Source: Streptomyces formicae
Lineage (GTDB): Bacteria > Actinomycetota > Actinomycetes > Streptomycetales > Streptomycetaceae
Assembly: GCF_002556545.1 (NCBI RefSeq)
Contig: NZ_CP022685.1
Span: 124,001 to 188,000, forward strand
Direction of reading: 5' to 3'
Length of the DNA stretch: 64,000 nucleotides
Shown here: one piece after another, positions 35,405 to 39,117 of the stretch
Layout of the letters: each line of letters begins with the position of its first letter
Numbering within the stretch: position 1 is the stretch's first letter
Made by a program: the position numbers and the translations under genes
Notes under the pieces: model-generated
What the model was told of the DNA's origin: nothing
Database searches by the model: none
The model's input: the letters and a program-made list of their open reading frames with translations, nothing else

Positions 35405-35725
35405 GTGGCAGAACTCGTGATGGCGCTGGGGAACGACGACGGGGCGACCGCCGTCTTCGAGGTGGACGGCGAACAACTCGGCTCGGATCTGGATCTGGCA
35501 GCCGGTGGAGACGGCGTCGTGGCCAGGGCGCACTTGACGCTTCAGGAGGCGCTCGACCAGGTGCGGCCGACACTCGCCCATGTCGCGCAGACCGTACGGG
35601 AGTTGAAGCCCGACGAGACGGAGATCCAGTTCGGTCTCAAGATGGGCGGTGAGACCGGAGTGATCATCGCCAAGGGGACGGCAGAGGTCAACTTCGCGAT
35701 TCGGGTGGTCTGGAAGAGCGGCTGA
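35405..35725 (+). CDS. Trypco1 (CU044_2847-like) protein
   Basis: 106 residues from GTG 35405, with AAGGGG 4 bp upstream. A short N-terminal beta strand region (ATAVFEVDGEQL) and a helix (LTLQEALDQVRPTLAHVAQT) lead to the conserved C-terminal stretch DETEIQFGLKMGGETGVIIA and VNFAIRVVWKSG. It matches the trypsin-co-occurring domain 1 pattern (EIxFGLK...G.IAK...). Such proteins are encoded beside trypsin-like or nSTAND proteins in conflict-type operons. Here the partner starts 5 bp downstream, so the two are certainly co-translated. Biochemical role unknown; a protease substrate or adaptor is suspected. Confidence 0.8.
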   Translation: MAELVMALGNDDGATAVFEVDGEQLGSDLDLAAGGDGVVARAHLTLQEALDQVRPTLAHVAQTVRELKPDETEIQFGLKMGGETGVIIAKGTAEVNFAIRVVWKSG

Positions 35726-35730
35726 TTCCG

Positions 35731-38700
35731 GTGCGTGCCCAGCGCGAAGGGCTCATCGTCAAGATCCGGGTCGCCACATCGGACGCCCCCGTCGGGGTCG
35801 GCTTCGTCGTCGGCGAGCGGCACATCGTCACCTGCGCCCACGTGGTCAACGCCGCGCTCGGCCGGGACAGGACCGTGCGCGACCGGCCCGCCGACACGGC
35901 GCGCGTGCAGGTCGAGTTCGTACTGCTGGGGGATGCCGAGGGCGCGCCGCTGCGGCACTGCCGGGTCGCCGCCTGGGATCCGCCGCCGTACGCCGGGTGT
36001 CCCGGGCGGGACGTGGCGGGTCTGATCCTGGTGGGCGGGGACACCTTGCCGGTCGGTGCCGGTCCCGCCCGATTGCTGGACGCGCGGGTGGGTCTGGTGG
36101 GTGACGCGCCCGTGTCGGTGTTCGGGTACGCGGGCGTGCCGGACCGGAAGGCTAACGGGGCCTGGAGCACGTGCGTGCTGCGCGGTGCCGTCGGCGGAGG
36201 GCTGATCCAGCTGGACTCCGGCGCGGAGTCGGCGCTGCGGGCCCAGCCCGGGTACAGCGGGGCACCGGTCGTCGCGACCGACCGGTGGGGGGACGCCGTC
36301 CTCGGCATGCTCGCCGTCGCCGGTCGTGGTGGTGGCGCTCAGGACGCGTACGCGGTGCCGATGACCGAGGTCGCCGCGGCCTGGCCCGAGATCCTGGGCC
36401 GTACCGTGCTGCCGCCCTGCCCCTATCGCGGACTGCGGGCCTTCACCGCGGCGGACGCGCGGACCGGGGTGTTCGTCGGCAGGGAGCGCGAGGTCGACCG
36501 GCTGCGCGACATGGTGAAGGCACAGCCCTTCGTCATGGTCACCGGCCCCTCGGGGGTCGGGAAGTCCTCCCTGGTCGCCGCCGGTCTGCAACCCGCCCTG
36601 TCGGCCGACGGCTGGAGCGTGGTGTCCTTCCGCCCCGGTGTGATGCCGTACGAGTCGGTGGCGCGGGCCCTGCTCGATCTGGAACACCCGGGCGGGGACC
36701 ACTCGCTCGAGCAGTTGGAGCACCGGGCACGAGCGGTGCGGGAGAACGGCTTCTGGCCCGTGGCCTCCCGGGTCGCGGTACTCACCGGCCAGCGACTCGC
36801 CCTGATCGGCGACCAGTTCGAGGAGATCCTCAGCGTCGGATCGGACGGCGAGAAGCCGCTGGAGTATCTGCAGCAGTTGCTGCCGCCGCCGGACGCCGTC
36901 CAGGATCCGCGCGTACGACTGGTGTGCACGCTGCGCTCGGACTTCCTGCCCGAACTGCTCGAACTCCCCGACCTGGGCCCGCGCCTCCAGGACCGTCAGC
37001 TGAACGTCTCCCCGCTGGACGAGGGCGCGTTGACGCGGGTCATCGTCGAACCGGCCCAGCTGGCGGGCGTCTCCTTCACTCCGGGGCTCGCCGAGCAGAT
37101 CGCCTGCGAGGCCAGCAAGGCCGCGGGAAGCCTGCCACTGCTCGAATTCACCCTGACCGAGTTGTGGCCCATGCAGCACGACCGCCGGATCAGCTTCGAC
37201 AGCTATCACGGTCTCGGCGGTGTCTCCGGAGCGCTCAATCAGCATGCGGAGAAGGTCTACATCTGGCTCTCCGAGCAGCTCGGGCTCGACGAACCCCGCA
37301 TCAGGCGGGCCCTGTTGACCATGGTCAGGGCCCGCGGTGGCGCCTCCAGCGCGGTGCGCGTCACGGCCCACCGCTCCCACCTGGGCAGCGACTGGTCGAT
37401 CGCGCAGCTCCTCGCCGACCCCGAGCGTCGCCTGGTGATCCTGGGTCCCGAGGGGCCGGACACGGCCGAGATCGCGCACGAGGCCCTCATCCGCGAATGG
37501 GGCCGCCTGGCCACCTGGGTCGAGGCCGACGCGGACTTCCAGCAGTGGCTGACGCTCATGGAGGAGCGGGCGCAGGGCAAGGAGAAGGACCTGCTGTCCG
37601 CCACCCGTGTGGCGGAGGCGCAGCACTGGCTCGCCGAACGCAGGACCGACGTTCCCTCCGAGGTCGCCGACCTGATCGAGCACAGCAGCGCGGAGGTGGT
37701 CAAACAGCAGCAGACCCAACAACAGCTCAGCCAGTCACAGGCGTTGACCGAGCAGCTGCGCGCCCGCTCCGCGGAGCTCGAACGCCATCAGGAGGCCCTG
37801 CGCGAATCCAACAGGAAACTCGAGGCCAAGACGGTCGAGATCGAGGAAGCCCGGCAGGTGCTGGAGGAACGCAACGAGCAGCTCGCCTACTCCATGAGCT
37901 ACAAGGCGGAGTTCCTCGCCAACATGTCCCACGAGCTGCGCACGCCTCTCCAGTCCATGCTGATCCTCTCGAAGATGCTCTCCGACAACGCGGAGGCCAA
38001 TCTCACGGAGCAGCAGGTGCAGTTCGCCGAGACGATTCACGGCGCGGGGTCCGATCTGCTCGTGTTGATCAACGACATCCTCGATCTCTCCCGGGTCGAG
38101 GCGGGCAAGATGGACGTGTCGCCGCGGCCTGTGAACCTGGAGGAACTCCTCGACTACGTCGCCGCCACGTTCCGTCCGCTCACGACGGAGAAGGGCCTCG
38201 ACCTCTCCTTCCACCTCTCCCCCGACCTGCCCCCTACCGTCCCCACGGACGAGCAACGCCTCCTTCAGGTGCTGCGGAACCTGCTGTCCAACGCCGTGAA
38301 GTTCACCGACACCGGGGCCGTCGAACTTGCCGTGGCCCTCGCCGGTTCCGGCGTGCCGCCCGCGATCCGCGAGTACCTGCACGAAGCCGGGTCGTTGCAG
38401 CAACTCGAATCCGAACTGCTCGCCTTCTCCGTGACGGACACCGGCATCGGTGTCCCTGCCGACAAGATGCAGGTGATCTTCGACGCGTTCAAACAGGCGG
38501 ACGGCACGACCAGCAGGAAGTACGGCGGTACCGGTCTCGGCCTGTCCATCAGCCGGGAGATCGCGCATCTGCTCGGCGGCGAGATCCACGCGGAGAGCGA
38601 ACTGGGCCGGGGATCCGCCTTCACGCTCTACCTCCCGCTGCACCACCCCGGCGCGCCTCACCCGGCCGCGGCGCCCCTCCCCGAACCACCGCTCTGGTCG

Positions 38701-39117
38701 CAACCCGTCGCGGACAGCCCTCTCGACCCCGACACGTCCCTCATGTTCCACGGCGAGTGCGTGCTGGTGGTCGACGACGACATCCGGAACGTGTTCGCTC
38801 TCACCAGCCTGCTGGAGCATCGCGGGTTGGTGGTCCTGTACGCGGAGGACGGCGGCGAGGCCATCGACGTCCTGGAACAGCACGCCGAGGTTGCACTCGT
38901 CCTCATGGACACGATGATGCCGGACATGGACGGCTACGAGACGACGGCGGCCATCCGCAAGAAGCCGCGGTTCGCCGGTCTCCCCATCATCGCGCTCACC
39001 GCGAAGGCCATGAGGTACGACCGCGAGAAGGCGCTGGAGTCCGGCGCCTCCGACTACGTGGCGAAACCGGTGGAGCCCGAGGAACTGCTCACCGTGCTGC
39101 GGCGTTGGCTCGTGTGA
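35731..39117 (+). CDS. Trypsin-like protease / nSTAND NTPase / histidine kinase / receiver fusion
   Basis: An 1128-residue protein from GTG 35731. A trypsin-like domain spans about residues 10-215 with a full triad: His37 (TCAHVVN), Asp94 (GRDVAGLIL), Ser176 (QPGYSGAP). An nSTAND1-type NTPase begins PYRGLRAF (231), with GREREV (250), Walker A GPSGVGKSS (272-280), Walker B LALIGDQFEE (356-365) and a helical end near 640. A coiled coil spans about 650-720. HisKA has His734 in EFLANMSHELRTPLQ. HATPase_c has an N-box (Asn850, NLLSNAVKFTD), DTGIG (903-907) and GGTGLGL (932-938). The receiver has acidic pocket 1015-1017, phospho-acceptor Asp1060 (LMDTMMPDMDGYE), Thr1090 and Lys1112. No membrane helix is seen, so it is cytoplasmic. 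All catalytic residues look intact. Confidence 0.95.
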   Translation: MRAQREGLIVKIRVATSDAPVGVGFVVGERHIVTCAHVVNAALGRDRTVRDRPADTARVQVEFVLLGDAEGAPLRHCRVAAWDPPPYAGCPGRDVAGLILVGGDTLPVGAGPARLLDARVGLVGDAPVSVFGYAGVPDRKANGAWSTCVLRGAVGGGLIQLDSGAESALRAQPGYSGAPVVATDRWGDAVLGMLAVAGRGGGAQDAYAVPMTEVAAAWPEILGRTVLPPCPYRGLRAFTAADARTGVFVGREREVDRLRDMVKAQPFVMVTGPSGVGKSSLVAAGLQPALSADGWSVVSFRPGVMPYESVARALLDLEHPGGDHSLEQLEHRARAVRENGFWPVASRVAVLTGQRLALIGDQFEEILSVGSDGEKPLEYLQQLLPPPDAVQDPRVRLVCTLRSDFLPELLELPDLGPRLQDRQLNVSPLDEGALTRVIVEPAQLAGVSFTPGLAEQIACEASKAAGSLPLLEFTLTELWPMQHDRRISFDSYHGLGGVSGALNQHAEKVYIWLSEQLGLDEPRIRRALLTMVRARGGASSAVRVTAHRSHLGSDWSIAQLLADPERRLVILGPEGPDTAEIAHEALIREWGRLATWVEADADFQQWLTLMEERAQGKEKDLLSATRVAEAQHWLAERRTDVPSEVADLIEHSSAEVVKQQQTQQQLSQSQALTEQLRARSAELERHQEALRESNRKLEAKTVEIEEARQVLEERNEQLAYSMSYKAEFLANMSHELRTPLQSMLILSKMLSDNAEANLTEQQVQFAETIHGAGSDLLVLINDILDLSRVEAGKMDVSPRPVNLEELLDYVAATFRPLTTEKGLDLSFHLSPDLPPTVPTDEQRLLQVLRNLLSNAVKFTDTGAVELAVALAGSGVPPAIREYLHEAGSLQQLESELLAFSVTDTGIGVPADKMQVIFDAFKQADGTTSRKYGGTGLGLSISREIAHLLGGEIHAESELGRGSAFTLYLPLHHPGAPHPAAAPLPEPPLWSQPVADSPLDPDTSLMFHGECVLVVDDDIRNVFALTSLLEHRGLVVLYAEDGGEAIDVLEQHAEVALVLMDTMMPDMDGYETTAAIRKKPRFAGLPIIALTAKAMRYDREKALESGASDYVAKPVEPEELLTVLRRWLV

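Follow-up and report, generated by a model that had tools for sequence, protein, structure and literature searches.

The window analysed here is a stretch of 64,000 nucleotides from Streptomyces formicae (contig NZ_CP022685.1, positions 124,001 to 188,000). The genome forms a single contig of 9.61 Mb, the window starts at its base 124001, and the locus under study lies ∼160 kb from one sequence end. Two genes stand there on the forward strand. The first (35405..35725) encodes a 106-residue protein with the trypsin-co-occurring domain 1 (Trypco1; CU044_2847 family; PF19493, E 1.2e-24; NF041216, E 1.1e-20). The second (35731..39117) is a single open reading frame with a GTG start and encodes a fusion protein of 1128 residues, in which a trypsin-like peptidase (Trypsin_2), an NTPase of the STAND class (signal transduction ATPases with numerous domains; nSTAND1), a coiled coil, a histidine kinase core (HisKA and HATPase) and a receiver (REC) follow one another. 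Here, we show that the C-terminal half of this fusion (residue 640 or so onwards) is copied from the coiled coil-kinase-receiver half of the host hybrid kinase OsaA, which is conserved, and that such kinase halves were captured or re-copied separately in at least three host families.

Pfam matches above the cut-off were obtained for all five domains of the fusion. The trypsin-like peptidase domain comprises residues 22-184 (35794..36282; PF13365 Trypsin_2, E 1.3e-8) and has the triad H37, D94 and S176. The nSTAND1 NTPase comprises residues 231-615 (36421..37575; PF20703, E 2.1e-86; 291 bits against a cut-off of 27.1), with D361 and an intact Walker A motif that contains K278 and S279. The HisKA or DHp (dimerisation and histidine phosphotransfer) domain is found at residues 725-792 (37903..38106; PF00512, E 3.4e-18) with H734, and HATPase_c at residues 839-971 (38245..38643; PF02518, E 4.1e-26) with N854, D903, G905, G907, G933, G935 and G937. 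The receiver domain (residues 1011-1123; 38761..39099; PF00072 Response_reg, E 3.6e-27) has D1060 and an intact pocket of D1015, T1090 and K1112. An earlier note, made from the letters of the window, had described this architecture in one chain and had named the triad, the Walker motifs, H734 and D1060 as intact, and all of this, K278 included, was found as claimed. It had further supposed that the two genes are co-translated: the Trypco1 partner is borne out by the profile matches, and the gap of 5 nt fits with co-translation but does not show it. A chance or frame artefact as the source of the fusion is ruled out by the single long reading frame and by conservation across the family, whose full-length relatives in the protein database share 47-83% identity.

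The domains were also modelled with AlphaFold2 (AF2), a check proposed in the same note. The mean pLDDT (predicted local distance difference test) of the fusion was 79.8, while a pTM (predicted template modelling score) of 0.53 makes the relative placement of domains in the model not reliable. A structure search with the model returned histidine-kinase-type structures among the 50 matches listed. For Trypco1 the prediction (mean pLDDT 58.4) was too weak for a structure search. We also observed that R170, six residues ahead of the catalytic serine, is nearly invariant; presumably, it may bear on the cleavage preference of the trypsin domain.

Within the S. formicae genome itself, the kinase half is matched best by a 2010-residue protein that combines HAMP arrays with GAF, HisKA, HATPase and REC, and a receiver protein is encoded directly after it. 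We refer to these two as OsaA and OsaB, putative orthologues of SCO5748 and SCO5749, from the architecture that passages of PMC9739842 give for the latter. Homology between the fusion and OsaA spans residues 640-1127 of the fusion (37648..39111), that is, the coiled coil, kinase core and receiver, and residues 1444-2007 of OsaA, with 60% protein identity; the DNA is 80% and 82% identical in two blocks. The fusion thus shares the kinase core and receiver of an OsaA-type hybrid kinase but not the HAMP array and GAF input, in whose place it has the trypsin-nSTAND half: no HAMP or GAF was matched in it by Pfam at E up to 1. The kinase core of the window fusion is 77% identical to its own OsaA and 76% to that of P0002, its closest relative. 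In 7/7 fusions compared, the kinase core is nearer to the OsaA of the window genome than to any of the fusions P0002, P0003, P0005 and that of the window. The junctions differ as well, since the four Streptomyces fusions compared start at OsaA residues 1423-1444 and two Kitasatospora fusions at 1291, before the GAF domain; GAF is listed in precomputed Pfam for the Kitasatospora fusions P0035, P0048 and P0051. A separate OsaA, at least 83% identical to that of S. formicae over the compared part, was present in 8/8 genomes of the same genus that were searched. A fusion is present in seven of these; in the eighth, G391, the trypsin-nSTAND protein lacks a recognised kinase. The fused segment is therefore a copy of a host protein whose original is kept elsewhere. 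The two-component half, which the earlier note had treated as an anonymous output end, is instead an OsaA-type kinase copy, separately taken up or re-copied in different host families. S. formicae has a second hybrid kinase (L053, G000:C1:3151154), 58% identical in the kinase-receiver part and likewise with an OsaB-like receiver protein directly downstream.

That the kinase halves were taken up more than once came from the comparison of trees. In the nSTAND tree, 75 fusions together with the kinase-less 703-residue P0062 stand on one side of a branch with starred support of 99, and the other side holds nine relatives, of WD40 type or undefined, of which several have very long branches. In three kinase trees, fusions formed one clade in 0% of 200 bootstrap trees, and starred branches of the third, which holds 34 chosen fusion rows of 77, force at least six changes. 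The bootstrap of the later two kinase trees had not fully settled. Two spurious kinase matches (FUS_G570.0 and OWN_L054.5), near-duplicate rows and some rows that were long or incomplete were dropped before tree building. The approximately unbiased (AU) test of all fusions as one kinase clade gave p 0.033 with the kinase only and 0.016 with kinase and receiver; with the OsaA-like kinase of Nonomuraea added, p was 2.4e-78 (log-likelihood difference 218). A single ancient capture of all kinase halves is rejected by these tests overall. In three families the kinase halves cluster instead with OsaA-type kinases of the family that hosts them.

Two further host families give direct comparisons. Residues 656-1143 of the Nonomuraea fusion are 83% identical in protein to the OsaA-like kinase of the same genome (DNA 89.2% over 1445 columns), and its kinase core is 84% identical to that kinase versus 63% to the sister fusion P0050. 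The two are sisters at 100/98, and along the chain their identity increases at the junction. In Actinoplanes, the fusions P0066 and P0067 are sisters by nSTAND (starred support of 100); their kinases join nine from Micromonosporaceae (95/86), and that of P0067 lies within a group of Actinoplanes kinases (97/93). P0052, P0057 and the Virgisporangium fusion P0063 fall in the same Micromonosporaceae group. When the kinase-receiver part of P0066 was searched, P0066 was the sole fusion among the best 120 matches, those named being mainly HAMP-GAF kinases of Actinoplanes and other Micromonosporaceae. Capture and gene conversion of the OsaA-type half cannot be told apart in these comparisons.

The fusion is a family member and not a singleton. 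A search of 5.8 billion proteins scored 7992, and the following counts rest on the best 120: nSTAND1 with a kinase occurs in 69/120, and all four modules are found in 42/120, so that the architecture, which the earlier note gave for one protein, is that of a family. The named sources are all actinomycetes (Streptomyces, Kitasatospora, Nonomuraea, Spongiactinospora, Actinomadura, Saccharothrix, Virgisporangium, Actinoplanes and Paractinoplanes). Within the family the distribution is patchy and partly plasmid-borne. Genome draws were searched for the trypsin-nSTAND half at E<=1e-90 with at most four candidates scored per genome for the genus and three for the family and class, so that the counts are lower bounds. 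It was present in at least 5/295 genomes of the genus, the own genome counted (at least 4/294 others), in at least 4/394 of the family draw (the own genome, two fusions and one without a kinase domain) and in at least 5/394 of the class draw, where no fusion is known besides that of the own genome and two of the other four were checked, both without the kinase half. A scan of genome contigs gave three distant kinase or receiver matches, and a phage collection gave partial nSTAND matches in three records.

The fusion is also carried by four linear Streptomyces plasmids (L042-L045). The copy on pSCL3 of S. clavuligerus (L042, 7001-10464) has a frameshift in the nSTAND part and was found as two tblastn pieces in different frames; the Trypco1 gene upstream of it is still open. 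In the PLSDB tables, which are known to be incomplete, two locus tags are seemingly skipped right at the fusion gene in all four plasmids, as if the gene had been annotated in pieces or as a pseudogene. GC content at third codon positions (GC3) is lower in the plasmid copies that were measured and not lowered in the window copy, and codon composition was dropped as a sign of recent transfer for the latter.

Different parts of the fusion are kept to different degrees. The fusion rows number 77 and represent 71 distinct kinases; N854 and the five G-box glycines are invariant in them (77/77), and K278 and D361 are kept in 73/73 rows. The triad is complete in 50/53 distinct trypsin segments, the exceptions being one S176A and two gene models that miss the stretch of H37. 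H734 is lost in 6/71 distinct kinases, by at least two changes on the nSTAND tree: it is tyrosine in three that also have D1060E, and alanine in three without a recognisable receiver. The former are P0006, P0008 and P0038, and the latter P0020, P0023 and P0039. P0006, P0008, P0020 and P0023 retain a complete triad. D1060 was lost by at least four changes on the same tree. The four-residue receiver pocket is intact in 30/58 distinct receivers, the window copy included, and damaged in 28/58. OsaA has every checked site kept in 51/51 rows, although these rows are closely related. Loss of triad or kinase residues in homologues, which the earlier note had named as damaging to its proposal, was found in part for the kinase, while the triad and Walker residues are nearly always kept. 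The residues for its phosphorelay are in place in the window copy, and H734 in most members, but phosphorelay is not what the family conserves, since the pocket is damaged or the phosphorylated histidine lost in others.

Rates of evolution were compared in 10 fusion genes (the window and nine loci, the frameshifted L042 excluded) and eight OsaA genes. The median ratios of non-synonymous to synonymous substitution (dN/dS) in the fusions were 0.21 for trypsin, 0.18 for nSTAND, 0.45 for the coiled coil, 0.37 for the histidine kinase and 0.46 for the receiver, from pairs with dS 0.05-1.5 (29, 41, 28, 45 and 41 of 45, respectively). In many pairs, dS approaches saturation. In OsaA the medians were 0.17, 0.11 and 0.063 for the coiled coil, kinase and receiver. 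dN of the kinase exceeds that of nSTAND in 45/45 fusion pairs and dN of the receiver does so in 42/45, the pairs being non-independent. Identity to the OsaA consensus in 66 Streptomycetaceae rows is highest (0.81-0.86) in the DHp helices, N box and lid, and amounts to 0.64 in the DHp turn, 0.55-0.69 in some stretches of the catalytic and ATP-binding (CA) domain and 0.50-0.74 in the receiver. Six putative partner-specificity positions were located in the fusion by eye and by their distance from the histidine; five come from titles of HK853 structure entries and the sixth is taken to be position 272 of HK853. They are mostly as in OsaA (S742 in 62/66, L746 in 64/66, G771 in 53/66). The second hybrid kinase has R at position 771, and this is the only one of the six that separates it from OsaA.

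Trypco1 lies immediately 5' of the fusion in 11/11 loci (10 as called genes, L050 by tblastn). These loci, namely the window, four plasmids, Nonomuraea and five genomes, were chosen for the fusion and not for Trypco1. The window pair, a Trypco1 gene adjoining a gene for a trypsin-like peptidase, is thus of the Trypco1-trypsin kind. No other neighbour recurs among the called genes of the 11 loci, where the neighbours are unrelated and cross-comparison gave just two weak hits of a general enzyme kind. No response regulator recurs next to the fusion either; one receiver protein lies several kb away in locus L051. In the window, no REC protein other than the fusion was called between 25003 and 47981, in agreement with what had been noted before.

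The known systems that most resemble this locus are the Trypco1-trypsin conflict systems (PMC7159879) and the nSTAND1 proteins (PMC8195603), which share the trypsin-like peptidase, the NTPase and the adjoining Trypco1 gene; the resemblance to conflict systems that the earlier note pointed out is upheld. Unlike those systems, the window has no VMAP-C nearby and the C-terminal half of the fusion is a histidine kinase with a receiver. The VMAP-C matches of the own genome lie at 8.01, 7.89 and 9.47 Mb (the last below cut-off), far from the window at 0.12-0.19 Mb. Membership in a ternary VMAP/MoxR-vWA system is rejected as no VMAP gene stands alongside; five window neighbours that were scanned belong to other families than MoxR or vWA, no profile search having been aimed at these two. 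A known anti-phage system of PADLOC was rejected too, its models giving no convincing match (the best, at E 1.7e-4, spans just a P-loop stretch of 56 residues) and none for Trypco1. Relatives with a homologous trypsin-nSTAND half differ in what follows it: WD40 repeats stand in place of the kinase in the trypsin-nSTAND1-WD40 proteins P0070 and P0072-P0075 (precomputed Pfam) and L058, and L057 and the own-genome paralogue L054 have no recognised domain there. Trypco1 is upstream in L054, L057 and L058 as well.

STAND proteins usually carry the effector at the N-terminus and the sensor at the C-terminus. We read the kinase half of the fusion as occupying the sensor slot, with a link to the OsaA pathway as guard, decoy or input, and not as a phosphorelay output throughout the family, because WD40 repeats occupy the same place in the Trypco1-bearing relative L058. 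The protease is more likely the output, because lineages without phosphotransfer residues keep the protease triad. The locus would then be a two-gene mobile cassette of Trypco1 and a STAND-driven protease, whose sensor slot holds a captured host OsaA copy (coiled coil-DHp-CA-REC). This copy could monitor the OsaA/OsaB pathway, or else an OsaA-attacking agent. A change in it, brought about by phosphorylation, by ATP binding or by pairing with OsaA through the well-kept DHp helices, may be the trigger for nucleotide exchange and assembly of the nSTAND module, whereupon the trypsin domains, once assembled, would cleave Trypco1 and/or cell proteins. As a whole explanation, we consider this cassette evenly balanced between being right and wrong.

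Repeated copying of a host protein, evolution of the copy at a faster rate than that of its source and occasional loss of catalytic residues are features of the integrated decoys of plant NLRs (nucleotide-binding leucine-rich repeat receptors). The OsaA-like half shows all three and can be likened to such a decoy. By this analogy, a mobile STAND protease would carry an OsaA bait, copied repeatedly, and an invader, be it a phage, a plasmid or a rival, that attacks or hijacks OsaA would spring the protease; we put this specific form forward as tentative. PMC4759884 and PMC11611257 describe the plant case as a STAND NTPase joined to a copy of a host protein, the original gene persisting. The likeness is one of analogy only, the fusion having a different STAND clade, an N-terminal protease and no known pathogen effector.

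Several results weigh against the cassette with a sensor-slot OsaA copy. Most members keep H734 (65/71 distinct kinases) and, where a receiver is recognisable, D1060 (47/58), so that genuine kinase signalling by the fusions is plausible; the window copy, with its receiver pocket intact and all residues for phosphorelay in place, looks fully kinase-competent. A recognisable receiver is absent in 13/71 distinct fusions, of which some are perhaps truncated gene models. By the receiver alone, four of the seven fusions compared are nearer to the own OsaA; two are as near to it as to the window fusion, and P0002 is nearer to the latter. A single capture within Streptomycetaceae is not rejected (AU p 0.27), and the window fusion pairs with P0002 as its sister by nSTAND and by kinase half alike, so that the two share one capture. 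The Saccharothrix fusion P0058 departs from the host-family pattern, falling on a long branch in the Micromonosporaceae group in a set without a kinase of its own family. To these we add the saturation of dS noted above, and that protease activity, trigger and defence role are predictions from sequence.

The alternative that survives best takes trypsin-nSTAND as the input and the OsaA-type kinase as an output that would phosphorylate OsaB or compete for it with OsaA; it stays live because most members, the window copy included, keep a complete kinase. The DHp helices are among the segments closest to the OsaA consensus (0.81-0.86), the specificity positions mostly match OsaA, and a receiver protein adjoins the own OsaA. 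Partner choice is weakly tested by these positions, of which only 771 discriminates. Moreover, the histidine is lost in two groups and the pocket damaged in 28/58 while triad and Walker residues persist, and no response regulator recurs beside the fusion. We regard this sensor kinase as doubtful, and equally so its consequence that a protein encoded on a plasmid or a chromosome arm would feed into the host pathway of osmotic stress and antibiotic control; that S. coelicolor OsaB affects osmoadaptation and antibiotics is stated in passages of PMC9739842.

An old fusion under relaxed evolution, that is, one ancestral protein with a decaying kinase half, occasional gene conversion from OsaA and no meaning as decoy or guard, would explain the higher dN/dS of kinase and receiver, the lost receiver residues, the monophyly within Streptomycetaceae that is not rejected and an nSTAND tree that is likewise grouped by host family. 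We think it unlikely, given that a single origin is rejected overall by the AU tests, that N854 and five ATP-site glycines in 77/77 rows argue for continued use, and that re-copying in Nonomuraea is close. An ordinary housekeeping stress kinase, unrelated to conflict or mobile elements, is highly improbable, for although passages of PMC9739842 tie OsaA/B to osmotic stress, the trypsin-nSTAND half was found in at least 4/294 other genus genomes in one draw, the fusion is on four linear plasmids and its neighbours are unrelated in 11 loci.

If the cassette with a captured OsaA copy is right, bacterial STAND proteins gain host-protein copies by repeated capture, like plant immune receptors, and OsaA would be a target worth attacking. 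It would also give a handle on a question left open in passages of PMC9739842, namely how cytosolic Streptomyces hybrid kinases signal without a known histidine phosphotransfer (HPt) protein. The bait and the plug-in kinase can both be tested directly in laboratory Streptomyces. It is stated in Kaur et al. 2020 (PMC7159879) that the vWA-associated effectors yielded no histidine kinase domains, and passages of the Trypco1 literature (supplements and most subscription journals lying outside the search) describe no histidine kinase fusion. The architecture was not found in passages on nSTAND1 with histidine kinases, nor, by title among the matches listed, in work on Streptomyces STAND proteins, trypsin-like proteins, histidine kinases or phage defence. 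A search for integrated decoys, guards and integrated domains listed plant and fungal NLRs, antiphage systems such as bNACHT25 and unrelated work, and the decoy passages of a 2025 review mention no fused host domain. In passages of PMC12169576, bNACHT25 is a bacterial STAND protein proposed as a guard of host DnaJ, which is described as a separate host protein and not fused in.

A promoter and terminator scan around the locus was uninformative. The own genome has three further Trypco1 genes (G000:C1 7503002, 8013094 and 7892992); one further gene stands beside the trypsin-nSTAND1 protein of L054 (1440 residues, without recognised repeats) and two lie within a few kb of VMAP-C matches. Precomputed Pfam also lists Trypco1 (PF19493) inside the OsaA-type HAMP kinases P0271, P0286, P0288, P0290 and P0301, four of them named Krasilnikovia, which may be spurious matching of coiled coils.

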